NCBI GenBank assembly: GCA_015228925.1
Contig: JADGCQ010000012.1
Span: forward strand, 1-57,521
Length of the DNA stretch: 57,521 nt
Reading direction: 5' to 3'
Source of the DNA: Magnetococcales bacterium
Lineage (GTDB): Bacteria; Pseudomonadota; Magnetococcia; Magnetococcales; UBA8363
Below, in pieces: positions 3,201-47,498 of this stretch. A program made the translations under genes and the position numbers. The notes beneath the pieces are model-generated. The model was not told where the DNA came from. It did no database searches and saw only the letters and a program-made list of their open reading frames with translations. Numbering within the stretch: position 1 is the stretch's first letter; every line of letters begins with the position of its first letter.

Positions 3201-3500
3201 CTGGGCCTCTTCATCCAGAAAAAAATCAAAGGGATTGATGGTCACCATGCGGACGATCAACTCTACGTCGATCACCAATTCCTGGCATTTTTCCGGGAAT
3301 ACGAAACGGGCCAGAAAATTACCGAAAGGATCTTGGAGCCAGTTGATATAATGGTTCTCCGGTCGAACCTTCAGGGAATAGGCCTCGATGGGGGTACGAC
3401 AGTGGGGTGCTGGACGCAAGCGCAGCACATGGGGGGCCAGCATGATCCAGTGATCATAGCGATAGTGGGTGTGATGGCGCACAGCGACGCGGAGGGTCAT
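192..3500 (-). CDS. Transglutaminase/DUF2126 (amidoligase-like) protein
   Basis: A protein of 1102 residues with two parts. Residues 1 to about 280 form a bacterial transglutaminase-like module: a beta-rich N-terminal domain, then a core with Cys near 180 (GSCRDSAW), His near 233 (DLHAWCEVF) and Asp near 247 (GLDPTSG), giving the Cys-His-Asp triad. The remaining 800 residues match the DUF2126 family, regarded as a divergent ATP-grasp/amidoligase-type domain. The length is normal for the family. The start codon overlaps the 3' end of the Anbu gene by 4 bp, so the two are translationally coupled. By family knowledge such proteins sit in Anbu and ATP-grasp/alpha-E loci and are proposed to make or cleave isopeptide or peptide bonds; the substrate is unknown. 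Confidence 0.9.
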   Translation of the reverse strand: MTLRVAVRHHTHYRYDHWIMLAPHVLRLRPAPHCRTPIEAYSLKVRPENHYINWLQDPFGNFLARFVFPEKCQELVIDVELIVRMVTINPFDFFLDEEAQTFPFTYEEELKHQLAPYLVIEKNTPRLDQWLRGIDGEMGSKTIDFLVAVNQRLWKEISYTIRLEVGVQEVEETLKKKTGSCRDSAWLLVQVMRKLGLAARFVSGYLIQLAADEKSLDGPSGPEKDFTDLHAWCEVFVPGAGWLGLDPTSGLFAGEGHIPLACTPHYESAAPVSGLTDPCQVSFRFNNTVERISETPRTTKPYTEGQWQAIDSLGQQVDAVFQKEAIQLSMGGEPTFVSIDDHDAPEWNTAADGVHKRQRAQDLLQRLRDRFAPGGLLHYGQGKWYPGEELPRWRYGCFFRADGQPLWSRPTLAVDEKTTFDLNQGKHFLQALGRHMGGIDPFMQPAYEDPFYHLWKESTLPPDVDPLQADLKDPLERRRLARLLQRGLGEPVGYVLPLDRDAATGHWISGPWRLRQKQLFLLPGDSPMGFRLPLDSLEVDPAHPHEPDKERCPFSEPDDLVAEPTVARWRQGFVRTALTLELREGRLYLFLPPMVRLESFLALIKAIEETANQTGIDPILEGYQPPDDERLHRFFITPDPGVIEVNIHPSLTWEGLKEKTIGLYQEARLARLGTEKFLVDGRHTGTGGGNHITIGGLSAAQSPLLRRPDLLASLITFWQHHPGLSYLFSGLFIGPTSQAPRVDEARDDSLHELEIALSQIPNGPVAQPWLVDRVLRHLLVDLTGNTHRAEFCVDKLYSPDGPSGRLGLLELRAFEMPPHPHMSLVQMLLLRALIAWFWEKPYRHPLIRWGSALHDQFMLPYFVESDMKQVVDSLREAGYPFDFGWLDPFLSFRFPVLGFVQLGDMMLELRHALEPWHVLGEETTRHGTARFVDSSVERLQVRVSGLIPERYVLVCNGHRLPLRATGVRGEFVTGVRFKAWQPPSGLHPLMPIHSPLVFDLVDQWNQRPVGGCTYHVVHPGGRSYDGFPVNGLEGESRRLSRFWEHGHSIGPWQPTTAPAAGGRFIPEGSGQPLLRDDPLTTTREFITTLDLRRVQRFENTPS

Positions 3501-4270
3501 GATCCTTCTCCAGGAGGGGGGGATTTGACTTGGGGGGAATGTTCCCAGTTAAACTCGGGTAATCTTTGAAACAGTCGTTTCAAACCATTGTTCCAACTTT
3601 TGCGTAATGCCCCCAGATACGGGGTGTTCAACTCAAACCGGGTATGAATACCGCCATCAATCTGATCCCGCCGATAGATCAAAAGATCCAGAGGCGGTCC
3701 CACCGAAAGATTGGAACGCATCGCCGAATCCATGGAAACCAGGGCGCAACGGGCAGCATTTTCCAGGGAAAGGGCGGGGACAATGATCCGATCAAGGATG
3801 GGCTTACCATATTTGGTTTCCCCAATTTGCAGAAAAGGGCTATAGGGTGACGGGGTGATGGGGTTACCTTCGGGATAAATGAGAAAAAGTTGCGGAGATT
3901 GCCCGGCAATCTGGCCGGCCAGGATGAATGTGGCATCAAAACGTGCTTCGGCATGGGCTTTGCTGGTATATTGCTCTTGAATAGCAAGGCTGGTACGGCC
4001 AACATGGTGGGCCGCCTCTTCCATACTGCCGAGACTGGCAAGCGAAGGGACGTGGCTATCATTGAGTTGGGCTTCCCGTTGCAGTTGGCTGATCACCGAT
4101 TGCGTCGTCGCCAGATTCCCGGAGGAAAGGAGGGCCATATGTCGTTGCCCCGGCCAAGTAAATGCATGGGTCTTGGTATAACAGGCGATTTGATCCACAC
4201 CGGCATTGGTGCGCGAATCCGAAGCCAGCACAATGCCATCATCCAACAATATTCCGACGCAATAAGTCAT
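3497..4270 (-). CDS. Anbu, ancestral beta-subunit proteasome-type peptidase
   Basis: A 257-residue Ntn-hydrolase. With the residue after Met counted as 1, it shows Thr1, Asp17 (SDSRTNAG) and Lys32, the positions of the proteasome catalytic Thr, Asp and Lys, and the N-terminal sequence MTYCVGILLDDG matches Anbu rather than HslV. The ATG follows a strong AAGGAG site. Anbu is a self-assembling proteasome relative whose substrates are not established. It is the first gene of a leftward pair with the DUF2126 protein and is divergent, by about 80 bp, from the ATP-grasp/alpha-E fusion gene. That arrangement implies one shared regulatory region for the whole locus (inference). Confidence 0.9.
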   Translation of the reverse strand: MTYCVGILLDDGIVLASDSRTNAGVDQIACYTKTHAFTWPGQRHMALLSSGNLATTQSVISQLQREAQLNDSHVPSLASLGSMEEAAHHVGRTSLAIQEQYTSKAHAEARFDATFILAGQIAGQSPQLFLIYPEGNPITPSPYSPFLQIGETKYGKPILDRIIVPALSLENAARCALVSMDSAMRSNLSVGPPLDLLIYRRDQIDGGIHTRFELNTPYLGALRKSWNNGLKRLFQRLPEFNWEHSPQVKSPPPGEGS

Positions 4271-4350
4271 CCCCTTCTCCTTTTATGTCTAAACAAACTG
4301 AGGCTTTCCAACGGCGTGTTGTTCAACCTTTTCGATGGAGTGCGTGATCG

Positions 4351-6894
4351 GTGACCGTTTTTTCGGCACAAGTGCCGTCGGGTTATGACGAGGCTTTTGC
4401 AGCACCCGGGGAGCCACGGGGACATTGGCGATCATTTCTGGATCACCTCTATTCCGGCGGCCCCGAACGACCGGGGCGACTCTGGGACCAAACCTTGCAC
4501 CTCTTGCGCGAATCGGGTGCCGTCTATTCGGGCGCGACCGCCGGTTCCACGCAACGACGACCCTGGGCGTTCGATCCCATACCGATGATTCTCCACCATG
4601 CCGAATGGCAACGTTTGGAAGTGGGGTTGATGCAACGGCATCATCTGTTCACCCTGCTCCTGCGTGACCTGTACGGCATCCAACGGGTGATCTCCGAAGG
4701 GATCATCCCCTCGGAACTGGTATTTGGTCATGGTGATTTTTTGTTTCCCCTCTGGGGTCGGCCTACCCGCAAGCTGACCCTCCCCCTCTATGCCGCCGAT
4801 CTCGTCCGCCTTGCCGATGGCCGCTTTCAGGTCGTCTCCGACAGAACCCAAGCCCCATCCGGTCACGGTTATGCCCTGCAAAACCGACGGCTGACCCATC
4901 GCCTGTTCCCGGACAGGGCCACGTTCGGCCCCATCCAACCCCTGCAACCCTTTTATCGTTCCATGCGAACCGGGTTGATGCGTTTGGCCCCTCATGCCGC
5001 TCAAAATGCCCATATCGTCCTCATGACGCCAGGTCCGGCCAACGAAACCCATTATGAACACACCTTCCTCGCCCACGCCATGGGGTTGACCCTGGCCCAG
5101 GGGAACGATATGACGGTCCGTGGCGGTCGCCTGTGCCTGCGGACACTCCATGGGCTGTTGCCGGTGGATGTCATCTTGCGCCGGGTCGATGAAGCCTGGT
5201 GCGATCCCCTGGAACTCAACGAAGACTCCCTCCTGGGGGTCGTCGGTATGGTGCAGGCGGCACGGGAAGGGTATACCGCCATGGCCAACCCCCTGGGGAG
5301 CGGCATCCTGGAAAACTTGGGACTCCATCCGTTCCTCCCCGCATTGTGCCGCTTTTTCCTCGGTGAAAACCTGCTCCTTGAAAATCCCAAAACCCTGTGG
5401 TTGGGTGCAGAAACTTCTCGAAACCAAGTCATGGAATCCTGGCATCATGACCCATTTCCTTGGTCCATACTCCCCCTGCAACCCGACTTGGCCTTGCCGG
5501 TCAACGGTCTGTCCGTCGATGAATCTTTGCGCCGACAAATCCTGGAAAACCCATCCCGGTTTATTGCCCGCCCCCGGATTCACCCTTCGATGATCCCAGG
5601 GGTGGATGCCCAGGGGATGTGTCAACGACACCTCCTTTACCGCGCTTTCCTGCATCATGACGGCAACACCTCGTATGTCATGCCGGGCGGACTTGCCCGG
5701 GTTTCGCCCCCGGAAAAGGGGCGACACGCCGGTATGCCAGACCATGGTTACCCCTTCTCCCCAAGACAGGGGGGATCGACCAAAGATGTCTGGGTCATGG
5801 ACGACCGCGACCACCCTGAGGTCGCAACCCCGGTGCAATCTCAAGACTCTATCCCTCCCGTCGGGCTTCCCAGCCGGGTGGCGGAAAATCTTTTTTGGAT
5901 CGGACGCTATGCCGAACGGTCCGAAGGGATTATCCGCCTTTTCCGTGAAGCGACCACCCTCATGGAGGAAGATGAAATCGGACTCAGCCGCGAACAACGA
6001 CGCCATTGTCGGCACCGCCTGTTGTCCACATTGACCCATTTTACCGGAACCTATCCCGGTTTTGCCGGTGAAGATGCCCGGTTGCAATGGGCCAATCCCG
6101 ATCAAGAACTGCGCTCCGTGATGCTCGATGCCAACCGAACCGGATCCCTGGCCTTTTCGCTGCAAGCCTTGATCAACGGAGGGTTTTCCCTGCGGGACCG
6201 CCTCTCCTCCGATACCTGGTTGATCTTGGATAATATCAGCACCCATCTGGGACGGTGGCAACGGCAGCGGATGGATGACATGAACCACCTCCTGTGGGAT
6301 CTTGGTCCGCTGTTGCAGGGACTCATGGCCTTTGCCGGTCTCACCTGGGAAAACATGCACCGTGATTTGGGATGGATGTTCCTGGATCTGGGACGCCGTT
6401 TGGAACGGGCGATGTTTTTGGCCCAACTCATGGAAACCTGCCTCGGCAAAGGGGATTCTCAAACCAATGAAATCGCCATGCTCGAACGGTTGCTCGCCTT
6501 GAATGATGGATTGGAAAGTTTCCGTTTTCATTTTCAAACCCGGTTGGAGGTGGAATCGGTATTGGCCAAGCTGCTCCAGGATGATACCGATCCGCGTTCC
6601 CTGGTATTTCAATTAACCCTGATGGAACGCCATGCCCATCAAGCCCCCAGATCCCCAGGGCAAACCCTGTACCGTACCCCATTGGGACGGACAGTCTTTG
6701 AAAGCCTCGCCGCCATCCGACTGGCCGATGCACCCGCATTGGCCCAAACCAACCCCGCAAGTGGCCAACGCGAAAACCTGCTGCAATTGACCCAACGGAT
6801 CCGCAATCTATTGCCCATGTTTTCCGAGACCGCCTCGGACAACTATTTCCGTCATGCCGATGCGACCCATCACCTTTTTACCGCCAGAACCTAA
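4351..6894 (+). CDS. Circularly permuted ATP-grasp/alpha-E fusion protein
   Basis: An 847-residue fusion. Residues 1-470 are a circularly permuted ATP-grasp domain (old DUF404/DUF407), with PFDPIPMILHHAEW-type and LEDN-like segments replaced by more divergent ones. From about residue 505 (PSRVAENLFWIGRYAERSEG) to the end is an alpha-E helical domain (old DUF403). The start is a GTG directly after an in-frame stop at 4345-4347; GGAG at 4337-4340 is a usable ribosome binding site. Family knowledge suggests an ATP-dependent carboxylate-amine ligase that could build a peptide-like product. The transglutaminase gene follows after 9 bp and is likely co-transcribed. The same two domains occur as separate proteins at 7692-10243. 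Confidence 0.88.
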   Translation: MTVFSAQVPSGYDEAFAAPGEPRGHWRSFLDHLYSGGPERPGRLWDQTLHLLRESGAVYSGATAGSTQRRPWAFDPIPMILHHAEWQRLEVGLMQRHHLFTLLLRDLYGIQRVISEGIIPSELVFGHGDFLFPLWGRPTRKLTLPLYAADLVRLADGRFQVVSDRTQAPSGHGYALQNRRLTHRLFPDRATFGPIQPLQPFYRSMRTGLMRLAPHAAQNAHIVLMTPGPANETHYEHTFLAHAMGLTLAQGNDMTVRGGRLCLRTLHGLLPVDVILRRVDEAWCDPLELNEDSLLGVVGMVQAAREGYTAMANPLGSGILENLGLHPFLPALCRFFLGENLLLENPKTLWLGAETSRNQVMESWHHDPFPWSILPLQPDLALPVNGLSVDESLRRQILENPSRFIARPRIHPSMIPGVDAQGMCQRHLLYRAFLHHDGNTSYVMPGGLARVSPPEKGRHAGMPDHGYPFSPRQGGSTKDVWVMDDRDHPEVATPVQSQDSIPPVGLPSRVAENLFWIGRYAERSEGIIRLFREATTLMEEDEIGLSREQRRHCRHRLLSTLTHFTGTYPGFAGEDARLQWANPDQELRSVMLDANRTGSLAFSLQALINGGFSLRDRLSSDTWLILDNISTHLGRWQRQRMDDMNHLLWDLGPLLQGLMAFAGLTWENMHRDLGWMFLDLGRRLERAMFLAQLMETCLGKGDSQTNEIAMLERLLALNDGLESFRFHFQTRLEVESVLAKLLQDDTDPRSLVFQLTLMERHAHQAPRSPGQTLYRTPLGRTVFESLAAIRLADAPALAQTNPASGQRENLLQLTQRIRNLLPMFSETASDNYFRHADATHHLFTART

Positions 6895-6903
6895 CGGGAA
6901 ACC

Positions 6904-7845
6904 ATGCGTTATCAAATCCGCCATACCACCCGCTACCTGTATCCCGAAACGGTGAGCCTTTGTCACAACCGGGTGCAATTGCAACCGGTGGAACGGGCGG
7001 ATCAACGCTGTCTCCGTTTTGACCTCACCCTTCAGCCTGAACCCAACTTGGTCCGTTCCTATAAGGATTTTTTCGGAAATTGGATCCATTATTTTGAAAT
7101 TCACAAACCACACCGCAAGCTTGAAATCACCGCCTTGAGCGAAGTGATGCGGATGATCGACGGCACCCCCACTTTGGCTCCATCGCCCCCCTGGGAGACG
7201 GTCCACGCAACCATTCATCGTGCCGATTCCAACGTGGAAACACGACGCAGCCTTCTTTTTTCCATGCCATCCCCCCTAGTCGCCTCGGAACCGGCATTGC
7301 ATCCCCTGGCTGATCAAGTATTCACCCCCGGTCGCCCCCTGTTGGCGGCGGTCATGGATCTGACCCAGCTCATTCATGATTCCTTCGCCTACGCCCCTGG
7401 CGCGACCTCCATATCGACCCCTTTGGGGCAGGTACTCCAACAAAAAGCGGGCGTTTGTCAAGATTTTGCCCATGTGGCCATTGGCGTTTTACGGTCCAAG
7501 GGACTCGCAGCCCGCTACGTCAGCGGCTATTTGGAAACCCAGCCACCTCCGGGTCAACCCAAATTGCAGGGGAGTGACGCCTCCCATGCTTGGTTTGAAA
7601 CATTTCTCCCCGGAAGCGGCTGGTTTGGTTTTGATCCCACCAACGCCGTTCAAGTCGCTGGACGCCACATCGTGCTGGCGGTCGGACGCGATTATGCCGA
7701 TGTCCCACCCGTGAAAGGGGTCGTCACTGGCGGTCGTGAACATCGGTTGAGTGTGGCGGTGGATGTCGTGCCATTGGCGGAAGAACTGACCATGACCCCC
7801 CCGGCATTTTCCCCAGATGGCGGTGCCACTTTTTTAACCTCCTGA
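6904..7845 (+). CDS. Transglutaminase-like cysteine protease
   Basis: A 313-residue protein with the bacterial transglutaminase N-terminal beta domain (residues 1-80) and a transglutaminase core. The catalytic triad is visible as Cys near 184 (AGVCQDFAHV), His near 227 (ASHAWFETF) and Asp near 244 (GFDPTN). No signal peptide is seen, so it is probably cytoplasmic. It follows the ATP-grasp/alpha-E fusion by 9 bp. Family members in these loci are thought to hydrolyse or remodel amide bonds made by the ATP-grasp ligase. Its last 51 codons overlap, on the opposite strand, the 3' end of the alpha-E gene. Confidence 0.9.
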   Translation: MRYQIRHTTRYLYPETVSLCHNRVQLQPVERADQRCLRFDLTLQPEPNLVRSYKDFFGNWIHYFEIHKPHRKLEITALSEVMRMIDGTPTLAPSPPWETVHATIHRADSNVETRRSLLFSMPSPLVASEPALHPLADQVFTPGRPLLAAVMDLTQLIHDSFAYAPGATSISTPLGQVLQQKAGVCQDFAHVAIGVLRSKGLAARYVSGYLETQPPPGQPKLQGSDASHAWFETFLPGSGWFGFDPTNAVQVAGRHIVLAVGRDYADVPPVKGVVTGGREHRLSVAVDVVPLAEELTMTPPAFSPDGGATFLTS

Positions 7846-8777
7846 TTGAAATAGGTGGCACTGATGGTCATGTGAAGTTCTCCCAACAGAATTTGCAAAC
7901 CATCCAAAAATTCGTGCAACCCTTCATTTTCGGCAAGCCTGGTGATATCGGCCAGATAGAGTTGCGCTTCAATGCGGGCGATAATCCCCTGGACCGCTTC
8001 GGCACCCCCCAGAAACCCCAAACAACCGGCAACCCCCTCGATCCCATAACGAAAGGCCCGGGGAAATGCATTATCTTTCAGAAGGAAGGCCAATACATCT
8101 ACCCCACGGATGCGTGGTCGTACCCGACGCCGATACATTTGATCCCCCGAAAGAGATTTTAATACCGTAAGCCAGAGCGCGTTGCGTAACGGTCGGTCTA
8201 CCGCATCCTGATGCGCCAACATCAACGCCCCCCGAACATCCAGGATTCGCGTCACCATATCCGCCCGTTCCAAATAGCGACCCAGGCGAAACATACGGAA
8301 GGTTTCATCCCGCACCATGCTGGAATCCAGAAGTCCGGTGATCTTGAGACATTCGTTGATCACATTTTCTAGGAATTCCAGTCGGTTGGCTGCATGGAAA
8401 TCGTGGCCGCACGCCGTCCGTGTATCCAGAAACAACCGATTGAGAAATTCCCATGCCTTGCGGGGAAAAAGCTCACGGGTTGTCCGAAGGTTTTCCCGGG
8501 CAAAGTGGAGCGCATTGAGGATGGAACCATGATATTCCTCATCGCGAATCAAAAAGTTAGTAATTTGGAGTTCATCGGGCTGCGTATTTCTTTTAAAAAA
8601 GATTTCACGACTTCCCGTGATGGCCAATAACTGTTCCCAGTTCATCGGTTGCACACGGCTCACGGGAGTCATATCCAACATGGTATGATGGGTCGCCATG
8701 ACCAAGCGCGACGTATCCTCGACCCGTTCCAGATAACGGGCCATCCAATAAACATTTTCGGCGACGCGAGATAGCAT
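7692..8777 (-). CDS. Alpha-E domain protein (DUF403)
   Basis: A 361-residue all-helical protein beginning MLSRVAENVYWMARYLERVED, the hallmark of alpha-E proteins, and matching the family to about residue 325 (ISATYFNQE). The last 35 or so residues are Ser/Thr/Gly/Pro-rich, lie beyond the usual family end, and are encoded antisense to the transglutaminase gene. The ATG overlaps the TAA of the upstream ATP-grasp gene by one base (TAATG), so they are translationally coupled. Function is unknown; alpha-E proteins occur almost always with circularly permuted ATP-grasp proteins and are presumed partners. Confidence 0.9.
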   Translation of the reverse strand: MLSRVAENVYWMARYLERVEDTSRLVMATHHTMLDMTPVSRVQPMNWEQLLAITGSREIFFKRNTQPDELQITNFLIRDEEYHGSILNALHFARENLRTTRELFPRKAWEFLNRLFLDTRTACGHDFHAANRLEFLENVINECLKITGLLDSSMVRDETFRMFRLGRYLERADMVTRILDVRGALMLAHQDAVDRPLRNALWLTVLKSLSGDQMYRRRVRPRIRGVDVLAFLLKDNAFPRAFRYGIEGVAGCLGFLGGAEAVQGIIARIEAQLYLADITRLAENEGLHEFLDGLQILLGELHMTISATYFNQEVKKVAPPSGENAGGVMVSSSANGTTSTATLNRCSRPPVTTPFTGGTSA

Positions 8778-10243
8778 TATTTACCCCTGTGCGTGTCGGC
8801 AATGACCCAAGTGTCTTTGCTGCCGCCTCCTTGCGACGAGTTGACCACATAGGAACCCCGTCGCAACGCCACCCGGGTCAACCCACCCGCAGTAATCCAG
8901 GTGCGTTCACCGCTCAGGATGAATGGACGCAAATCCACATGACGCGGTTCGATGCGACCGTTGACTAAGGTTGGCACCGTCGAGGGTGTCAACGTCGTCT
9001 GGCCGATATAATTGCGTGGGTTGGCTTGAATGAGATCGACAAATTTTTCCCTTTCGGCTGGTGTTGCATGGGATCCCATCAGCATACCATAGCCACCCGA
9101 TTCGTTGGCGGGTTTGACCACCAATTTATCCAGATTGGCCAAAACATGTTGCCGTTCCTGGGGAATATGGCAACGCCAAGTGGGGACATTGGGTAAAATG
9201 GGATCCTCATCCAGATAATATTTGATGATATCCGGCATATAGCTGTAGACCACCTTATCGTCGGCAACCCCCGTCCCCGGGGCATTGGCCAAACCCACTT
9301 TTCCCCGTTTCCAAGCGCGAATCAATCCCGGAACCCCCAATGCGGAATCGGGACGAAATACTTCTGGATCGAGAAAATCATCGTCCACCCGCCGATAGAT
9401 TACATCGATTTGTTTCAAACCATGAATGGTTTTCATCTGGACCGTATCCTGATCATCGACCATGATATCCCTGGCTTCCACCAGGTCCACCCCCATTTGT
9501 TGCGCCAGGTAGGCGTGTTCAAAATAGGCGGAATTATAAATACCGGGGGTCAGAACCACCACCCGCGTTTTATCCCCAGGTCGCGGAGACAACGAGGCCA
9601 GCATGTCGTACAACTGGCTGGGATAGTCATCCACTGGGAGGATACTTTGGGTTTGATAGAACTCTGGGAGAATCCGTTTGGTCAACATCCGGTTTTCCAA
9701 CATATAGGAAACCCCGGATGGGACTCTCAGGTTGTCTTCCAGGACATACATGACCCCATCCCGATCCCGCAACAGGTCGCTGCCACAGATGTTGGCCCAT
9801 ACATGAAACTTGGGCATCATGCCAACCAGTTGCGGTCGCCAATTGCGCGACTTTAAGACGACTTCCCCAGGAAACCGGCCATCTTTCAATATCTTCTGGC
9901 CGTTGTATAAATCATGAATAAAGGCATTCAATGCCTGAGTTCTCTGGGTCAAACCCGACTCCAACCGCCGCCATTCCGATTCGGCCATACATCGGGGGAT
10001 GATGTCGAAAGGCCAAGCGCGGTCGATGTTTTCCCCCTCCGAATAGATGGTGAAGGTGATCCCAAAATTGATGATGGCCATTTCCGCAGCACTCTGACGG
10101 CGCGTCAACTCCTCCTGACCCAGTTCATTCAGATAGGAAACCAGTCGGCACTCCCCATCGGAACGTCCGTTTGCGTTCATGTTGAGTTCATCATAGACCC
10201 CGTGAGGACGATAGGAGCTTGAGGTGCTTGCGATGGCCAGCAT
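8777..10243 (-). CDS. Circularly permuted type-2 ATP-grasp protein
   Basis: A 488-residue stand-alone ATP-grasp protein (DUF404/DUF407). Conserved segments include GITFTIYSEGENIDRAWPFD near residue 65, YVLEDNLRVPSGVSYMLENR near 165, RRVDDDFLDPEVFRPDS in the middle, and KPANESGGYGMLMG near 385, which resembles the nucleotide-binding loop. The ATG at 10243 is preferred because AAGGA lies 8 bases upstream; a TTG six codons earlier is possible. It is the first gene of a leftward pair with the alpha-E gene. It is homologous to the N-terminal half of the fusion at 4351-6894 but more canonical. Confidence 0.92.
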   Translation of the reverse strand: MLAIASTSSSYRPHGVYDELNMNANGRSDGECRLVSYLNELGQEELTRRQSAAEMAIINFGITFTIYSEGENIDRAWPFDIIPRCMAESEWRRLESGLTQRTQALNAFIHDLYNGQKILKDGRFPGEVVLKSRNWRPQLVGMMPKFHVWANICGSDLLRDRDGVMYVLEDNLRVPSGVSYMLENRMLTKRILPEFYQTQSILPVDDYPSQLYDMLASLSPRPGDKTRVVVLTPGIYNSAYFEHAYLAQQMGVDLVEARDIMVDDQDTVQMKTIHGLKQIDVIYRRVDDDFLDPEVFRPDSALGVPGLIRAWKRGKVGLANAPGTGVADDKVVYSYMPDIIKYYLDEDPILPNVPTWRCHIPQERQHVLANLDKLVVKPANESGGYGMLMGSHATPAEREKFVDLIQANPRNYIGQTTLTPSTVPTLVNGRIEPRHVDLRPFILSGERTWITAGGLTRVALRRGSYVVNSSQGGGSKDTWVIADTHRGK

Positions 10244-39316: not shown

Positions 39317-40321
39317 CTAGCAAATCCTTGGTAAGAGTTCGCCACTCGGGACATCCACCACCCGGTGACCACCGATGACGGTTTCCAGGATCACCCGCCC
39401 CGACTGCCGGATTACCGTACCAATCTCTCTGGCCTCTCTCCCCTCCGGCAGTTCACGCCACCGCGCCAAAATCGCATCGGAGACGTTGGGTGAACAAATC
39501 ATCACCAAACACCCCTCCGAGGCCACATGCAGCAAATCCAATCCCAACATTTCCGCCAAGGCACGCCCACCCGGCGAAAACGGTAGATCACATGCACGTA
39601 TCAGAATCCCGAACGGTTGTCCCACCGTCATTTCATTCAATACCGTCGCCAATCCACCTCGGGTAGGATCCCGCATAAAACGAATTTCGGCGGCCATAGC
39701 GGCAACCCCTGCCACCAAACGGTGTACGGGGCGGGAATCACTCACGGGACCATTTTCAATCTTCAACCCTTCCCGCACCGAAAGCACCGCCATCCCATGA
39801 TCGCCCAACGTGCCGCTGACCAAGATGCGATCTCCCGCAACAACCTGCCCAAGCCCCAAGGAAAACCCCGGAATCGCCTCACCAATGCCCGAAGTCGTGA
39901 TGTACAAGCCATCGCACTGACCGCGCCGCACCACCTTGGTATCCCCGGTTGCGATGACGACACCACAATTTTGCGCCGCCGTTTGGATGGCATCCAAAAC
40001 ACGACGCAGCAGCACCAAAGGAAGCCCCTCCTCCAAGATCAACCCCAGGGAAAGCCATCTGGGGTGGGCACCGGTCACCGCCAGATCGTTCACCGTCCCA
40101 TGGACTGCCAGGTCGCCAATATTCCCCCCAGGAAACTCCAAAGGGTGGACCACAAAACCATCGGTGGAAAACCGAATCCGAGTAGTATCCAAAAGCAGTG
40201 AAGCGGCATCGGGCAGACCATGCAACGGCCCATGACCAAAGCGAGAAAGGATCTCCGTCTGGATCAACTGGTGCGAAAGGCGACCACCACCACCGTGACT
40301 CAACAGGATGCGCTCGTTCAT
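39317..40321 (-). CDS. hypE: Hydrogenase maturation protein HypE
   Basis: A 334-residue PurM-like protein, ending in PRIC: the C-terminal Cys is the residue that receives the carbamoyl group and is dehydrated to thiocyanate, the source of CN ligands. SHGGGGRLSHQLI near residue 8 and ATGDTKVVRRGQCDGLYI near 140 are typical. The start overlaps the hypD stop (ATGA), so it is coupled. It works with the HypF carbamoyltransferase domain upstream and the HypCD complex. Length normal. Confidence 0.95.
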   Translation of the reverse strand: MNERILLSHGGGGRLSHQLIQTEILSRFGHGPLHGLPDAASLLLDTTRIRFSTDGFVVHPLEFPGGNIGDLAVHGTVNDLAVTGAHPRWLSLGLILEEGLPLVLLRRVLDAIQTAAQNCGVVIATGDTKVVRRGQCDGLYITTSGIGEAIPGFSLGLGQVVAGDRILVSGTLGDHGMAVLSVREGLKIENGPVSDSRPVHRLVAGVAAMAAEIRFMRDPTRGGLATVLNEMTVGQPFGILIRACDLPFSPGGRALAEMLGLDLLHVASEGCLVMICSPNVSDAILARWRELPEGREAREIGTVIRQSGRVILETVIGGHRVVDVPSGELLPRIC

Positions 40322-41427
40322 GATGAGACTCCCGAAGCATATTTAAATTCAGCGGCACAACTCCCCTCGGAACTCACCATACAAGGCCCCAGGGGATGAT
40401 CGGGATGACAGCCAGTACCAAACAGCGGACACTCCGATGGGTCAATCTTCCCCTTCAGCACATCGCCACACAGGCAATGGGGGTTGACCCGTCCCGGTTC
40501 GACGACAAAACCAAAACGATGACAGGCATCATATCGGGTGAATTCCTGGCGCAACACCAATCCACTGGCGGGAATCACCCCCAGACCGCGCCAGGAAGCA
40601 TCCACCGGTTCCAAAAAACGGGCGATCACCCGCTGTGCCTGACGATTACCTTCCGGTTTCACCACCCGGTTGTATTGATTATCGACATGGGGATTGTTTG
40701 CCACCAATTGCCGCGCCAAACCATCCAGGCCATACAGGATATCCAGCGGTTCAAACCCGGCCACCACGCAAGCCACACCATGGGTTTCGGCATAGGGACG
40801 ATAGGCATCGGCCCCGATGATGGCACTGACATGGGCAGGGCATAAAAACCCGTCGATCCGTATTTCAGGATCGCCCAGCAACGCCGAAAGGGCCGGAGGA
40901 ACCCGTTTGAAGGCGGTCAACAAAGACAGATTCCCGATAGCTTCCCCGATGACCCCATCCAGCATGGCCATGATGGGGGCCACAGTGGTCTCGAAGCCGA
41001 TGGCAAGAAACACCACCTCGGTTTTCCGATTGTCCCGGGCCAGTTCCAAGACATGCCGAGGTGAATAGCAGATTTCAATCCGCCCCCCTTCCGCTCTGGT
41101 TTTATCCAAGGTGGACCGGGATCCCGGAACACGCATCATATCACCAAAAGTGGCAATGATTTTTCCCTGGTGCGCCAACTGGATAGCGGCATCGATGATT
41201 CCGGGATCGGTCACACACACCGGGCAACCCGGACCACTCACCAAGTCCATGTTGATGGGGAGAAAATCACGAATGCCAAAACGGGCGATGGCCATGGTAT
41301 GACTGCCACAAACCTCCATGAAATGGACGACCCGCCCTTGCCGAGCCAATTGCTGACCATGGCCGCACAGCACCTTGTAAAAATGGTTGGCCGCCTCCAT
41401 GTTTCTAAACCCTTCGATCCCGTTCAT
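40318..41427 (-). CDS. hypD: Hydrogenase maturation protein HypD
   Basis: A 369-residue iron-sulfur scaffold for Fe(CN)2CO assembly. It has the conserved CGSHTMAIARFGI near residue 42, GPGCPVCVT near 69 and the C-terminal Cys cluster CLCGDVLKGK, CPLFGTGCHP and MVSSEGSCAA that holds the 4Fe-4S. It overlaps hypC and hypE by 4 bp each. No oddities. Confidence 0.95.
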   Translation of the reverse strand: MNGIEGFRNMEAANHFYKVLCGHGQQLARQGRVVHFMEVCGSHTMAIARFGIRDFLPINMDLVSGPGCPVCVTDPGIIDAAIQLAHQGKIIATFGDMMRVPGSRSTLDKTRAEGGRIEICYSPRHVLELARDNRKTEVVFLAIGFETTVAPIMAMLDGVIGEAIGNLSLLTAFKRVPPALSALLGDPEIRIDGFLCPAHVSAIIGADAYRPYAETHGVACVVAGFEPLDILYGLDGLARQLVANNPHVDNQYNRVVKPEGNRQAQRVIARFLEPVDASWRGLGVIPASGLVLRQEFTRYDACHRFGFVVEPGRVNPHCLCGDVLKGKIDPSECPLFGTGCHPDHPLGPCMVSSEGSCAAEFKYASGVSS

Positions 41428-41708
41428 GGTCCAACCACCCGTTTTTCCAATGGTGCGATCAAAGTTACCTCGGCACCCATCTGGGCACGATAAGTCGCGG
41501 CCAAGGATGCAAACAAAGCCAAACGGATTTCTGCCTCACGCATATCGAGCTTTTCAATGGCATAACCCGCATGGATCAGGAGATAATCCCCAACCTGGGG
41601 ATCTTCCACCAACATTAAGCCCACCGTCATTTCAATGCCATCCAGTGCGACAACTCCAGCATTATCCCCCTGGACGGATATGAGTTTCATCGGCACAGCC
41701 AGACACAT
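41424..41708 (-). CDS. hypC: Hydrogenase maturation chaperone HypC
   Basis: A 94-residue HypC/HupF protein beginning MCLAVPMKLI, with the essential Cys2 that binds iron, and GDYLLIHAGYAIEKLD in the beta-barrel region. It carries the Fe(CN)2CO unit from HypD to the hydrogenase large subunit. Its first 47 bases lie inside the 3' end of the maturation protease-HypF fusion gene, in another frame, so translation of the two is interlocked. Confidence 0.95.
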   Translation of the reverse strand: MCLAVPMKLISVQGDNAGVVALDGIEMTVGLMLVEDPQVGDYLLIHAGYAIEKLDMREAEIRLALFASLAATYRAQMGAEVTLIAPLEKRVVGP

Positions 41709-43317
41709 ATAATTTCTCCCCCCCGATCATCCAGGTTTGCCCCACGGCAATCGAGAGATCACCCGGTGGAATGCGTTGATGTTGAAAGACACGATACCCC
41801 TCTTGCTCCAATTTCACCCGTAACCCCACTGCCACCAGTTCGTTCATAAAAACGCCACCACTACACACAACAGAACGCAAGCCGGTACATTCATGACCAT
41901 GGTGGACCATTTGCACCATGGCATCGACCATGGTGTGATGAAAGGCCATGGCCCAATAAGCCGTTTCATCCTGGGTCCATCGTCGATCCCCTGGAAATTG
42001 GCGGAACAGGTCTCTCCAATCCACGAGCAACAGGTCATTCTCCTGGCGCAAGGAAAAGGGGAGCCGTTCGACCTGTGAACCATCACCCACGAACCGTTTG
42101 GCCGCCGCTTCCAACAGCATGGCCGGTTCACCTTCGCCCGTGATGGCGGACGGGGCAATACCCAGCAGTGCCGCACACGCATCGAACAGCCGTCCCGCTG
42201 CATGGCTCAAGGGAGCATGAAGGCCATGGCGGCATTGATGGGTCCAGAGTTGCACCTCCGTGGCCGACAATCCCAAAGTCGCACACCAGGCGGGATCGAT
42301 GGCCACACCCGCGTCCAACCAGCGCGCCAGCAGTTGCCGATAAGGATTTTTAACCGCCGCATCACCGCCGGGGAGTGGCACCGGGGCAAACGTCCCCAAA
42401 CGGAGACCATGACCGGGCCGCACATGCAAAAGTTCCGCCCCCCACAGGGTGGCATCCCCCCCCCATCCCATCCCATCGAACACCAACGCCAGGCTCTCTT
42501 GAAGGCCATGCTCGGCCATACAGGCCGCCGCATGGGCAACATGATGTTGGACCGCAACCACCGCCAATCCCCGTTCCTGGGCCAAACGATGGCCCAACAC
42601 TGATGGAAACAGATCGGGATGCAGATCGACCCCGATGATTTGTGGTACCGCATCTCCCCCATCCAACAACCAGCGGGCATGGTCCTCCAACACGGTCCGG
42701 GCTAAAGGATCCGCAGCATCACCCAAAGGTTGAAACAAAAGGATCTCGTCAGTACATCCCAAGGCAAGGGCATTTTTGCTTTCAATCCCCATGGCCAAGA
42801 CCGAACGCTTGAGCGGTATTGCCAGCGGAATACGTGTCTGGATCAAGGGAATCGGGGGGATCAGATGATCGATGGTCTGACACAATCCCTGCTGAATGGC
42901 GGGCAACCGTTGCCGCATCGGGGGTGTCAAGCCGGGGCTTATCGCAAGATCAAAGGGTTGCACACCAAACAGATAGATCGGATGGTCATAGCCCAACTCC
43001 CGCGCCATGGCAATCGCTGCGGCCATCCCCAGACCATGGGTAGAAATCATACCGCGATGGTCGGCAAGGAGATCGTGTTCCAGGGGAAGAAACCGCCACG
43101 AACCCGCTTCCATCCCCATCTCGGCACAATCCACAATGATCACCGGTCCGGGCAATTGCAAAAGATCATGCGCCAGGGTCAAGGCATCGGCATCTTCCCA
43201 CAACAAGGGAACCACCTGGGGTCTGTCAGCGGTTTTCGACAGTGTTTCCACCAACGCCAACCCCACCGCATCATCGCCCGCACTTCGACTGCCAAGGCCC
43301 ACCACCGTCAGAATCAT
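41662..43317 (-). CDS. Maturation protease-HypF carbamoyltransferase (Kae1-like) fusion
   Basis: A 551-residue fusion. Residues 1-150 are a HybD/HycI-type hydrogenase maturation protease: GLGSRSAGDDAVG (acidic nickel ligand), IIVDCAEMG (Asp) and STHGLGMAAA (His) match the three nickel-sensing positions. From about 180 to the end is only the C-terminal Kae1-like carbamoyltransferase domain of HypF: NALALGCTDEIL, VAVQHHVAHAAACMAEHG (metal-binding His), LVFDGMGWGGDATLWGAE and VVCSGGVFMNEL. The acylphosphatase, zinc-finger and YrdC domains that make carbamoyl-adenylate in normal HypF (about 750 residues) are absent. ATG 43317 is taken as start because it begins the protease domain; it lies 19 bp after hydA. 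A fusion of the last and an early maturation step is unusual. Confidence 0.85.
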   Translation of the reverse strand: MILTVVGLGSRSAGDDAVGLALVETLSKTADRPQVVPLLWEDADALTLAHDLLQLPGPVIIVDCAEMGMEAGSWRFLPLEHDLLADHRGMISTHGLGMAAAIAMARELGYDHPIYLFGVQPFDLAISPGLTPPMRQRLPAIQQGLCQTIDHLIPPIPLIQTRIPLAIPLKRSVLAMGIESKNALALGCTDEILLFQPLGDAADPLARTVLEDHARWLLDGGDAVPQIIGVDLHPDLFPSVLGHRLAQERGLAVVAVQHHVAHAAACMAEHGLQESLALVFDGMGWGGDATLWGAELLHVRPGHGLRLGTFAPVPLPGGDAAVKNPYRQLLARWLDAGVAIDPAWCATLGLSATEVQLWTHQCRHGLHAPLSHAAGRLFDACAALLGIAPSAITGEGEPAMLLEAAAKRFVGDGSQVERLPFSLRQENDLLLVDWRDLFRQFPGDRRWTQDETAYWAMAFHHTMVDAMVQMVHHGHECTGLRSVVCSGGVFMNELVAVGLRVKLEQEGYRVFQHQRIPPGDLSIAVGQTWMIGGEKLYVSGCADETHIRPGG

Positions 43318-43336: not shown

Positions 43337-44644
43337 TCACGTCGTGAACTGGATATCCAACATATGGACCGAACAGGAGATGCACGGATCATAGGCACGA
43401 AGCAACATTTCCATATGCAAGGTCAAGGCTTCCTGAGACATGGACGGAAGCATTTGCGGCACAAAAGCCTTCATATCCTGCTCGATGTTGTTGATATTCT
43501 GGCTGGTAGGAATAATAGCATTGGCATCACAGCAGCGACCCGATTCATCAAAGGCGTATTCGTGAAATAAAATACCCCTGGGAACTTCCACGGCACCACA
43601 CCCCCGGCCTGCAACGGGTGTATGCTGGATATCCTCCTCCCGCAATCCACCATTCAAAACGGTTTCCATCATGGCCAGACTGTCATAAGTGCAATGGACA
43701 ATTTCGACCACCTGCGCGACCGTATTCATATAGGGATTAAAACAAGGAACTTTGAGACCCAATACTTGGGCCACTTCCTGGGCTTGGGGATGGAGTTGGT
43801 GAAAATTATTATTCACCCGCGCCAACGCCCCCACCGCATAGGCATCCCGATGCCAGCGCGACCAGCGGGTGGTGCAATGGGGGACGGTGAACTCATTGGT
43901 CACCCGAAGATAATCGCGCACCGCCACTCGTTCCTGAGTATCGGAACTGAAAATATCTCCATCATAAAGGGCGTATTCGTCGGGATGTTTTAACGAGACA
44001 AATTCGGTTTCCCGTTGGTAAGGGGGAATCTTCAAGGTTTTGATGATGGCGACCGTTTCCAACAGATCGGGTACGGCAGCCAACAGGCGATCATGGATCT
44101 GGGCAATCGCATCCAACGTTGGCAACCGACGCCACCCTTTCAGGGTATGGCTCATGGGATGCAGGGTACGGCCTCCCAGGACGGCGGTATAGTCATTCGC
44201 TAATTTTTTCAACCGCAAGGCCCGTTTGACGACATCGGGATGGGTTTTGATCAGGGGCATAACGCTGGGGGTGCCGACAAAATCGGGGACTGCCAGAAAA
44301 TAGACGTGCAGGACATGGCTTTGCAAAAACTGCGATTGGTTGAGCATTTTGCGCAACAAAACCGTTTGCGGTGACACCCGAATCCCCTGGGCCGCCTCCA
44401 CCGCTTTGGTAGCGGATAATTGATGCCCCACACAACAAATGCCGCAAATACGTCCCACCACCCACGGAATCTCCTGGGGGGACATGCCACGGGTAAAACT
44501 TTCAAAAAAACGGTTGGCCTCAACAATGCTGAGTTTAACCTCTTCCACCACCCCCTGCCGGGTGTTGATACGGATGTTGCCATGCCCCTCCACGCGGGTT
44601 ACATGATGGAGATCGATGTTGTAGGTTTTGGTCTCGATGGTCAT
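43337..44644 (-). CDS. hydA: Group-3b NiFe hydrogenase large subunit
   Basis: A 435-residue large (alpha) subunit. RVEGHGNIRI near residue 16, RICGICCVGH near 60 (first pair of nickel-binding cysteines) and DPCISCSVH near the C-terminus (second pair and the cleavage-site His) are intact. The extension after the His is only eight residues (MLDIQFTT), to be removed by a maturation protease. Its sequence fits soluble NADP-type sulfhydrogenases. ATG 44644 is chosen because it overlaps the small-subunit stop (ATGA); a 12-codon longer frame exists. The downstream gene encodes the fused protease. Confidence 0.93.
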   Translation of the reverse strand: MTIETKTYNIDLHHVTRVEGHGNIRINTRQGVVEEVKLSIVEANRFFESFTRGMSPQEIPWVVGRICGICCVGHQLSATKAVEAAQGIRVSPQTVLLRKMLNQSQFLQSHVLHVYFLAVPDFVGTPSVMPLIKTHPDVVKRALRLKKLANDYTAVLGGRTLHPMSHTLKGWRRLPTLDAIAQIHDRLLAAVPDLLETVAIIKTLKIPPYQRETEFVSLKHPDEYALYDGDIFSSDTQERVAVRDYLRVTNEFTVPHCTTRWSRWHRDAYAVGALARVNNNFHQLHPQAQEVAQVLGLKVPCFNPYMNTVAQVVEIVHCTYDSLAMMETVLNGGLREEDIQHTPVAGRGCGAVEVPRGILFHEYAFDESGRCCDANAIIPTSQNINNIEQDMKAFVPQMLPSMSQEALTLHMEMLLRAYDPCISCSVHMLDIQFTT

Positions 44645-45423
44645 CGACGGTTCTCCCGGCCCACAAACTGCGCACTGCAAAACAGACGATACCGATGTTC
44701 AATCTGGGCGTCGGAAAGCCCCTTTTCCCGCAACACCGCTTGGTGCGCCACCCGATTGGCCTGGGGCAAAAACCCCCGGCAACCGTCACAGCGATAACCA
44801 TGGGTCACACAAATCGCCTTGCAACCGCCATAGGTGACTTGCCCCATGCACGTTTCCCCCTGATCGAACACACATTCATTCTCAGCCATTTTGCATTCGA
44901 CACACACCGCATTGGCGGGAAAACTGGGAATGCTGCCGACAACCAACGCCTTGACCAGATGGACAAATTCTTCTGGAACGATGGGACAGCCCCGCAGTTC
45001 ATAATCCACGGAGACGATCTCTTTCACCGCCCGAACTCTGGTATGCGCCCACAGGGGCCAAAATTCGGGATCGGACTGTACCAGGTTCCGGTCCGCCTCC
45101 CCGTATACCCGTTTAAAATTTTCCGCCGGGGCAATAAAGTTGGATCGGGCCTGGACGTTTCCGATACAAGCACAGGCACCCATGGCCACCAAAACGGAAC
45201 TGCGGGCGCGAATACCCTGAAGCCTTTGCACATCGATTTCCCGATGGATGCTCCCTTCGATGAAAGCCACATCAAAACGGGGAGCCGTTTCCGACATCGC
45301 CTCACGAAATTCAACGATATCCACCAGATTAAGAATATCCAGGAACGCATCTTCGCAGTTGAGTACCGCGAGTTGGCACCCTTCACAACTGGCAAAATCA
45401 AAAAAGGCGACTTTAGGCTTCAT
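44641..45423 (-). CDS. hydD: Group-3b hydrogenase small subunit
   Basis: A 260-residue delta subunit. FASCEGCQLAVLN near residue 10, MGACACIGN near 80 and RGCPIVPEEF near 145 give the proximal 4Fe-4S ligands, and CVECKMAENECVF with CMGQVTYGGCKAIC and RCDGCRGF supply further clusters. It relays electrons from the NiFe site to the diaphorase subunits. ATG 45423 overlaps the hydG stop; upstream in-frame sequence belongs to hydG. Confidence 0.93.
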   Translation of the reverse strand: MKPKVAFFDFASCEGCQLAVLNCEDAFLDILNLVDIVEFREAMSETAPRFDVAFIEGSIHREIDVQRLQGIRARSSVLVAMGACACIGNVQARSNFIAPAENFKRVYGEADRNLVQSDPEFWPLWAHTRVRAVKEIVSVDYELRGCPIVPEEFVHLVKALVVGSIPSFPANAVCVECKMAENECVFDQGETCMGQVTYGGCKAICVTHGYRCDGCRGFLPQANRVAHQAVLREKGLSDAQIEHRYRLFCSAQFVGRENRR

Positions 45424-46268
45424 TGCAACGCCTCCTGAAGATCCACGATCCGGTCCAACCGAAACACCGGGCCATCCTGGCAACAGGTCAGATGGTTGAT
45501 TTGACAATGGCCGCATTGGCCGATGCCACACTTCATCCGCCGTTCCAGGTCCACGAAGATGTGAGAATGGGCAATGCCACGCCCCGTCAGTTCCATGATG
45601 GCAAATTTATACATCACCGGGGGACCACACAGGGCGACCAGGGTGCGATCAGGGTCCATGGCCAAGTCTGCAATCGGGGCGGTCACCAAGCCGATCCTAC
45701 CATCCCACGGGAGATGGGCCGTATCATCCACCAACCGGATTACCGTGACTGGACGACGTTCCCCACCCATGCGCGACCAGGATTGCAGTTCTTCACGATA
45801 AAGCTCCTCCGCCGGTGTCCGGCAGCCGCTGATGATGGTGACATGACCGAAAAGATCGGGTTGGGCAAGAATGGGTTGAATAAGCGAGCGCAACGGCACC
45901 AATCCCAACCCTCCGACGATAAAAACCACATCTTTGCCGTAGAAATCGGCCAGATGAAACCCAGACCCAAACGGACCGCGCACCCCCACGAATTGACCGG
46001 GTTGCAAACGGTGCAACACCTGGGTCAGACTCCCGGCGTTACGAATCACCATTTCCAGGATGTTATCATCGCGGGGACCGCAGGAGATGGAAATCGGGGC
46101 CTCCCCGATCCCTAGGAGCGACAACATGACAAACTGTCCCGGGCGATGCCCCAAGGGGGCGGGCAATGCGACCCGGAAAAATTTTTCCCGAGCCGTCATC
46201 GCCGTCACTTCCAGAATTCGGGCCATCTGCGGCAAAAATGGTCCATCATGGCAGGCGATGGCATTCAT
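45420..46268 (-). CDS. hydG: Sulfhydrogenase gamma subunit (FAD/NAD(P), 2Fe-2S)
   Basis: A 282-residue ferredoxin-NADP reductase-like protein. The FAD domain has HRPGQFVMLSLLG and EAPISISCG near residue 50-65. The NAD(P) domain has VFIVGGLGLVPLRS near 120 and ALCGPPVMYKF near 225. The end has CGIGQCGHCQINHLTCCQDG, the 2Fe-2S site. GGAGG lies 7 bases before the ATG at 46268; a GTG at 46274 is too close to it. The subunit exchanges electrons with NADP(H). Confidence 0.92.
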   Translation of the reverse strand: MNAIACHDGPFLPQMARILEVTAMTAREKFFRVALPAPLGHRPGQFVMLSLLGIGEAPISISCGPRDDNILEMVIRNAGSLTQVLHRLQPGQFVGVRGPFGSGFHLADFYGKDVVFIVGGLGLVPLRSLIQPILAQPDLFGHVTIISGCRTPAEELYREELQSWSRMGGERRPVTVIRLVDDTAHLPWDGRIGLVTAPIADLAMDPDRTLVALCGPPVMYKFAIMELTGRGIAHSHIFVDLERRMKCGIGQCGHCQINHLTCCQDGPVFRLDRIVDLQEALQ

Positions 46269-46270
46269 AG

Positions 46271-47317
46271 TCACCCCTCCACTTTCTGGATTAGATCATT
46301 GACAATATCAAAGATATCAATGTTTGCCGTACACTGACGGCCACACCGTCCACACCCGACGCAAAAAGCCCCTTCTTCGAAACGTTGGGTCAGATATTGA
46401 AATTTCCGTTTCACCCGGTGGCGTTGTCGCGCCAGGGCCAAAGGACGAAAATCATGTCCCCCGGCGACGATGGAAAACGTCGGAAGCATACAGCCATCCC
46501 AGGTAGCGGTTCGCCCCCCGCTGCTACCATCGGACAATTCAAAATCATCACGCACGTTAAAGCAGTAACAGGTTGGACACACAAGATTGCAACTACCACA
46601 GGAAAAACACCGCTGGACGTGGTTTTCCCACACTGGAGAAGACCATTGACCGGCGATGATCGGGCCAATTTGGGACAGGGGGACAGAAAACTGCCGACCA
46701 AACGGTTTGGAACGCCGCACATCGACCCGTTCTTTGAAGGAGTCTACCGCATCACAGACCGGCAAAGCGGTCCTCTGCACGAGGGTGCGCCCCCGTTCGG
46801 AGAAACTTTCCACCAAGATTTCATCGTCCAACGCCGTCAAGAACACATCGGCATTCTTGCGCCACCCCAAAGAACCGACGGCATCACAAAAACAGGCGTC
46901 ATCACAGGGGTACAGACAATCGCAAGCGATGATGGTGGTATGGGTGCGTCGGGAGAGATAATGGGGATTGGGAACCCCCTCCCCATGCACCCGATCCATC
47001 AAGTCAATCCCTTTAAGATCACACGGACGGACCCCGGCCAGGATCTGTTTGGACGCATCCAGGACCGGCGTCACCACAGGGATTTCATCGCCCATCGTCT
47101 GATAGCGAAAGAGTATTTCTTCGGCAGGAAACAATTTTTTTCCGGGAGGAACGATGGTGGGGCGGTAATGTTCCAACTGGATCAAGGACCCTTCCCTGAC
47201 CTGCTTGAACCGAAATCCCGACCGCCCAGCCCGTTGCGGAAAGTAAACCTGGGATTCCCGTGCCAGGTGTTTGATCCAGTTGGGCAGTTCATCCCTGCGA
47301 AGCAAAAACGGACGCAT
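46271..47317 (-). CDS. hydB: Sulfhydrogenase beta subunit (4Fe-4S)
   Basis: A 348-residue iron-sulfur protein. LAGVRPCDLKGIDLMDRV in the middle and CDCLYPCDDACFC follow the pattern of HydB; two ferredoxin clusters are at CFSCGSCNLVCPTCYCF near 237 and FCVGCGRCGRQCTANIDIFD near 335. With HydG it forms the NADP/sulfur-reducing half of the enzyme. GGAGG lies before ATG 47317; nine further in-frame codons upstream are unlikely. It is the first gene of the leftward hydBGDA-hyp run, so the operon promoter must lie between it and the 3' end of the SNF2 gene. Confidence 0.92.
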   Translation of the reverse strand: MRPFLLRRDELPNWIKHLARESQVYFPQRAGRSGFRFKQVREGSLIQLEHYRPTIVPPGKKLFPAEEILFRYQTMGDEIPVVTPVLDASKQILAGVRPCDLKGIDLMDRVHGEGVPNPHYLSRRTHTTIIACDCLYPCDDACFCDAVGSLGWRKNADVFLTALDDEILVESFSERGRTLVQRTALPVCDAVDSFKERVDVRRSKPFGRQFSVPLSQIGPIIAGQWSSPVWENHVQRCFSCGSCNLVCPTCYCFNVRDDFELSDGSSGGRTATWDGCMLPTFSIVAGGHDFRPLALARQRHRVKRKFQYLTQRFEEGAFCVGCGRCGRQCTANIDIFDIVNDLIQKVEG

Positions 47318-47498
47318 ACGCCACCTCCACCCCGACGAACTCACCCGGTCAGATCACGCACCAGTCGCCATTCCCACACCCAACCATGGTTCAATGCTAC
47401 CACGTTTTACTGACAAGTTTAAGCCAAAACGACACACGCAAAAAAACCGTGATGTTTTTTTATGGAATCGGGTAGACGAGACATCAATCATCGTTCCG

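Follow-up and report, generated by a model that had tools for sequence, protein, structure and literature searches.

The window, which is the whole stretch of 57,521 nucleotides that was analysed, comes from a magnetotactic-type bacterium of the order Magnetococcales and carries a hydrogenase operon. All genes of this operon lie on the minus strand in the order beta, gamma, delta, large subunit, fusion, HypC, HypD and HypE. The structural genes, recognized by Pfam and NCBIfam profiles, encode a 4Fe-4S beta subunit (46271..47344), a FAD/NAD-binding gamma subunit (45420..46274), a small (delta) subunit (44641..45531) and a ShyA-like, group 3b-like [NiFe]-hydrogenase large subunit (43337..44680). 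NCBIfam places the enzyme among the ShyABCD/HydABCD sulfhydrogenases of the group 3b-like type, with every match falling below the equivalog cut-off. The accessory genes encode HypC (41424..41708; ORF and Pfam), HypD (40318..41427; ORF, Pfam and NCBIfam) and HypE (39317..40321; ORF and NCBIfam), and between them and the large subunit gene there is a frame of 551 uninterrupted codons with an ATG start (41662..43317, minus strand) that joins a hydrogenase maturation protease to the Kae1-like carbamoyltransferase domain of HypF.

The first 152 residues of this protein (42862..43317) form a HybD/HycI-type protease domain with the metal ligands D16, D63 and H94, as judged from Pfam, TIGR00072 and alignment. 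A linker of residues ~153-168 (42814..42861), delimited by alignment of the fusions, leads into the Kae1-like domain at residues ~169-531 (41725..42813; Pfam and alignment), wherein H258, H262, D281 and D520 are kept. The Pfam matches, each of which exceeds its curated cut-off, are HycI (residues 23-144), HypF_C (170-269) and HypF_C_2 (278-527). The protease half passes both PF01750 (43.3 bits against a cut-off of 23) and TIGR00072 (89.7 bits against 47.45). The NCBIfam hypF model TIGR00143 gives 208.4 bits, which is below its cut-off of 466.1, and is matched only over model positions 385-739. An AlphaFold model has a mean pLDDT of 88.7 and is less confident around residues 85-90 and the C-terminus. 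Foldseek searches with this model rank HypF crystal structures first, among them 3vti, the complex of HypE with HypF (E 1.3e-30), and also recover HybD 1cfz (E 7.8e-9, target TM 0.77). The initial annotation had read the frame as a complete HybD-like protease followed by a complete Kae1-like HypF domain with no YrdC or acylphosphatase part, and Pfam, AlphaFold and Foldseek agree with this reading. No Pfam match to acylphosphatase, zf-HYPF or YrdC is found in the fusion protein, such that the zinc-finger part is missing as well.

Neither a chance frame nor a frameshift can account for the fusion, because the same arrangement is found at 51-62% identity in five other genomes, namely two from the host genus (G002 and G007) and three from another family of the order (G013, G027 and G046). 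A sequencing frameshift, which had been named as a possible undoing of the initial annotation, is ruled out by this conservation together with the substitution pattern. The protease ligands D16, D63 and H94 and the Kae1 HxxxH...D motif (H258, H262 and D520) are invariant across all six fusions. The linker differs in length and sequence among them and evolves faster than both halves, and no internal start with a ribosome-binding site was seen in it by eye. For the closest pair (G046 versus G027), dN/dS is ~0.22 for the protease half and ~0.27 for the Kae1 half, which indicates that both halves are under purifying selection. The host frame is ~15 residues longer than those of its relatives, and positions 41662-41708 form a 47-base overlap with the start of hypC.

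The large subunit ends in DPCISCSVH-MLDIQFTT, a substrate-like C-terminal extension, and therefore a protease is needed. The N-terminal domain of the fusion would be the endopeptidase that removes this tail from the group 3b-like subunit encoded just upstream. The C-terminal domain would be what remains of HypF, the Kae1-like S-carbamoyltransferase, and would transfer the carbamoyl group to the last cysteine of HypE, the predicted acceptor in the terminal ...LLPRIC. The downstream maturation pathway appears intact from its genes, with HypC, HypD, a HypE ending in PRIC, and HypA and HypB elsewhere in the genome. The latter two are encoded outside the hydrogenase operon on contig 165 (10679-11892), beside genes of the cobalamin-synthesis type, and a loss of HypA/HypB in the host genus is thus ruled out. 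Another member of this genus (G006) has HypA and HypB and lacks HypF.

The host genome (4.25 Mb, 99.39% complete, a draft of 219 contigs) was searched throughout with profiles, and controls with E. coli and other genomes gave the expected results. There is one hydrogenase large subunit, one HycI and one HypF_C, and neither zf-HYPF nor acylphosphatase is found anywhere in this 99.4% complete assembly. No second HypF and no second HycI protease were found genome-wide. Thus, within this assembly, the fusion is the only HypF in the cell, and the separate full-length HypF and separate protease that would have undercut the initial annotation were looked for and are both absent. A split HypF, with its N-terminal half as a gene of its own, is ruled out by the TIGR00143, zf-HYPF and acylphosphatase searches. 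It might be argued from the fragmented state of the draft that the N-terminal half was simply missed by the assembly. Such an artefact is hardly credible, since the assembly is 99.4% complete, the same absence recurs in G002, G007, G013, G022, G026 and G027 (95-100% complete), and the search does detect N-terminal pieces where they are present (G037 and G067). The absence also recurs in closed or near-complete genomes of other families, and the closed cases exclude an artefact in practice.

The only HypF in the cell is Kae1-only, and therefore carbamoyl-adenylate would have to come in trans. The genome encodes two YrdC proteins, which we assign from sequence and neighbouring genes to YciO (contig 117) and to Sua5/TsaC (contig 43, beside purE), and no YrdC gene is linked to the hydrogenase operon. 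Of the separate YrdC/acylphosphatase protein that the initial annotation had asked for, acylphosphatase is absent, and YrdC is present only as these housekeeping proteins. We propose that a housekeeping YrdC-family protein acting on carbamate makes the carbamoyl-adenylate, most plausibly Sua5/TsaC and less likely YciO, an arrangement that would resemble the separate TsaC and TsaD of tRNA t6A synthesis. Overall, the explanation that we favour as the probable one is a two-domain maturation enzyme that carries the sole, reduced HypF of the cell, is fed in trans, and arose by fusion of adjacent genes.

Counts of YrdC proteins bear on the identity of the donor. Across the Magnetococcales and family f18, near-complete genomes with a Kae1-only HypF encode two YrdC proteins. 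A full-length HypF adds its own YrdC domain to this pair, and the count is again two in most genomes that lack HypF, with three in G006. In other families, no YrdC protein beyond the expected number is found in Kae1-only genomes. These counts rule out a dedicated extra YrdC partner. The suggestion in the initial annotation that another protein supplies carbamoyl-adenylate thus fits the data, but its alternative of a dedicated donor does not, as only the housekeeping Sua5/TsaC and YciO are available. Because there is no dedicated partner, Sua5/TsaC would be the common denominator if a YrdC enzyme is needed.

YciO could take the place of Sua5/TsaC as the synthase, as its active site resembles that of TsaC, its activity on threonine is very weak and its true substrate is unknown (PMC12506659), and it is present in the host and its relatives. 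However, its gene neighbourhoods point to RNA metabolism (PMC12506659), and second copies of the YciO type are found equally in genomes that lack HypF. In addition, G161, rated 100% complete, combines a Kae1-only HypF with a single YrdC protein, which is encoded in a 347-aa frame of Sua5 size. Judging from this YrdC count, YciO may be the donor in most genomes but not in G161, and we consider it quite unlikely to fill this role.

Kae1-only forms of HypF are not confined to the Magnetococcales. Among 398 near-complete Pseudomonadota genomes, HypF_C is found in 85. The match is single in all but one of them, and there it is divided between two frames at the same locus. In 22 of the 85, Magnetococcales included, HypF is represented solely by a Kae1-only or fused frame. 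Where enough flanking sequence could be read, these genes are located in hyp operons or beside hydrogenase genes, and the associated hydrogenases belong to groups 1d, 3b and 3d. The contexts are group 3b in Magnetococcales, the NAD-reducing HoxFUYH in G080, G104 and G125, and the membrane-bound HoxKG type in G090, with accessory genes indicating the latter type in G402, G412 and G211. The flank in G161 is a short stretch in which the hypF gene alone is seen. A tree of 75 rows, computed with the motif columns left out, requires six changes to the Kae1-only state, which are forced by well-supported branches and constant over bootstraps. As judged from this tree, Kae1-only HypF arose at least six times in Pseudomonadota.

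One residue accompanies these changes. The histidine of the SxHxGDL motif is present in 45 of 47 full-length HypFs (the other two have Tyr) and in 0 of 27 Kae1-only proteins, and in the host fusion alignment with full-length HypF places it at codon 197 (42727..42729, minus strand), which encodes Pro. This column was chosen after looking, but it is the extreme of the 45 positions that are conserved in at least 90% of full-length HypFs, the next most affected of which is still kept in 56% of Kae1-only proteins. The loss accompanies truncation in all six independent pairs (sign test 0.03, the minimum attainable with six pairs). The same histidine is lost each time while nearly all other conserved positions and the catalytic residues are kept, and therefore the pattern is one of adaptation rather than decay. 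We read the loss as a mark of life without the YrdC domain, perhaps of an interdomain or channel contact that has disappeared, with the transferase itself kept under selection.

The main rival to a donor in trans is that the Kae1-like domain is self-sufficient and uses carbamoyl phosphate directly on HypE, with or without ATP. Perhaps the loss of the near-invariant His197 in six lineages signals an altered active site and not the loss of an interface. A dedicated adenylating partner is absent from every Kae1-only genome examined, and N-transcarbamylases do transfer straight from carbamoyl phosphate (PMC6022934). However, the conserved Kae1 positions are kept apart from the histidine and a few others, which argues for the same reaction, and both HypF and TobZ use an adenylate intermediate. 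Moreover, HypF1 of Cupriavidus showed no activity in E. coli, a host that has carbamoyl phosphate available. We consider direct use of carbamoyl phosphate unlikely, if deserving of attention.

Another proposal is that the Kae1 half has left cyanide synthesis altogether and persists only for a structural role, such as holding HypE. The Cupriavidus protein, seemingly without activity, competed with the HypF of E. coli (PMC9100943), in keeping with such a role. Against this, the Kae1 half is under purifying selection (dN/dS ~0.27) with conserved metal ligands, the hydrogenase operon is otherwise complete and has no HypF but the fusion, and about twenty near-complete genomes whose hydrogenases are of group 1d, 3b or 3d likewise have a Kae1-only HypF as their only one. 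A purely structural role is thus improbable.

Returning to supply in trans, a bolder form of this proposal is that Kae1-only HypF is a recurrent and fully functional minimal HypF. Cyanide-ligand synthesis would then have been re-wired to Sua5/TsaC, the universal enzyme of tRNA t6A synthesis, which would provide carbamoyl-adenylate from bicarbonate and ammonia as the one adenylating enzyme of both hydrogenase maturation and tRNA modification, and the loss of the histidine would mark each switch. We regard this only as a tentative possibility. Speaking against a working supply in trans, Cupriavidus HypF1 failed to complement an E. coli hypF mutant, with uncertain expression (PMC5350229), and lowered activity in oxygen-limited conditions (PMC9100943). 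Carbamoyl-adenylate is also labile and is normally channelled inside HypF (PMC6022934).

The genomes of relatives suggest how the fusion was assembled. An acidobacterial and a deltaproteobacterial MAG have the same operon with the protease followed by an overlapping full-length HypF, after which HypC, D, E, A and B come in the deltaproteobacterial MAG. Protease and Kae1-only genes are adjacent but separate in G020, G022 and G026, and in G037 and G011 the protease is alone in the operon with a full-length HypF elsewhere. In a Kae1 tree, the Kae1-only forms of Magnetococcales all group in a single clade (100/98), which excludes the full-length proteins of G037 and G047. Within it, the fusions group (99/93) together with the Kae1-only genes of G003 and G043, which lack a neighbouring protease of the fusion type. 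Because of this tree, the loss of the N-terminal domains is placed first (once) and the fusion later (once). Comparison thus shows a series of arrangements that ran from a protease beside full-length HypF, through a protease beside Kae1-only HypF, to the fusion; the acylphosphatase, zinc-finger and YrdC domains were lost while the HypF gene adjoined the protease gene, with both genes joining afterwards.

On the simplest reading, G003 and G043 may represent later separations after a single fusion. In G003, a member of the host genus, the Kae1-only gene (contig 172, 2662-3676) is preceded by a gene for a sensor-like protein and not by a protease, which here seems to have become detached from a Kae1 domain to which it was fused before. 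In G043 (1752-9244), the Kae1-only HypF, from within the fusion clade, is located in the operon of a different hydrogenase (510-aa large and 310-aa small subunit), one with a small protease-like protein of its own.

No fusion is found outside Magnetococcales among the 398 Pseudomonadota genomes, nor in a wider contig scan whose queries were protease peptides of the host lineage only. A 616-aa frame in G073 (~7942-9687) is not a protease fusion but a different, internally deleted HypF with a partial acylphosphatase, the end of YrdC and a Kae1 domain with an SQH motif. This frame may be a decaying gene or a deletion in progress, and the genes around it appear broken too.

The initial annotation had viewed the fusion as a scaffold that couples early and late maturation steps, and a neutral fusion of two neighbouring genes explains it equally well. 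Probably the fusion followed merely from the genes being adjacent, and its effect would be a fixed stoichiometry and not catalytic channelling. More unusual than the fusion is the repeated, sole-copy use of Kae1-only HypF, and the minimal HypF that evolved repeatedly as a sole copy, with its residue signature, is the stronger result. No description of the protease-HypF fusion, of a sole-copy Kae1-only HypF or of the histidine loss was found in the literature covered, which included a minority of subscription papers.

In the standard view, HypF has four domains and produces its labile intermediate internally. In at least five lineages besides Magnetococcales, the cell's only HypF (a second one in Cupriavidus) is without the parts that make this intermediate, and the hydrogenase operons are otherwise complete. 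This intermediate is then either supplied by a housekeeping enzyme or dispensable for the transferase, and both outcomes would change the scheme of cyanide-ligand synthesis. A stripped HypF, possibly as a single fusion with its protease, could also simplify heterologous hydrogenase production.

Among known systems, canonical HypF (TIGR00143; E. coli 3tsp/3tsq, and 3vth/3vti) shares with the fusion the Kae1-like fold, the metal ligands and the operon context with HypC, HypD and HypE, but has the acylphosphatase, zinc-finger and YrdC domains that the fusion lacks. Similarly, the HybD/HycI endopeptidases share the fold, the metal ligands and the gene position directly after the large subunit, but have no HypF domain fused at their C-terminus. 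TsaC and TsaD of t6A synthesis also place an adenylate-forming YrdC enzyme and a Kae1-fold transferase on separate proteins, as proposed here, whereas their substrate is tRNA, their intermediate is threonylcarbamoyl-AMP and no HypE is involved.

Kae1-only HypF is itself already known from Cupriavidus necator, whose HypF1 has been called unusually truncated (PMC5350229), and the status as sole HypF is what differs here. HypF1 (394 aa, pHG1) has the same Pfam content as the HypF part of the fusion, and, like the latter, it is reduced to the Kae1-like domain and misses the SxH histidine. It has been described as inactive or competing under oxygen limitation, and a need for external carbamoyl adenylate, perhaps sufficient only in aerobic conditions, has already been proposed for it (PMC9100943). 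Unlike the host protein, HypF1 is unfused, represents a separate loss event on the tree and shares its cell with a full-length HypF2. The genomes described here have no such back-up, and a natural system with a sole copy avoids the masking by a full-length HypF2 that has complicated the study of HypF1.
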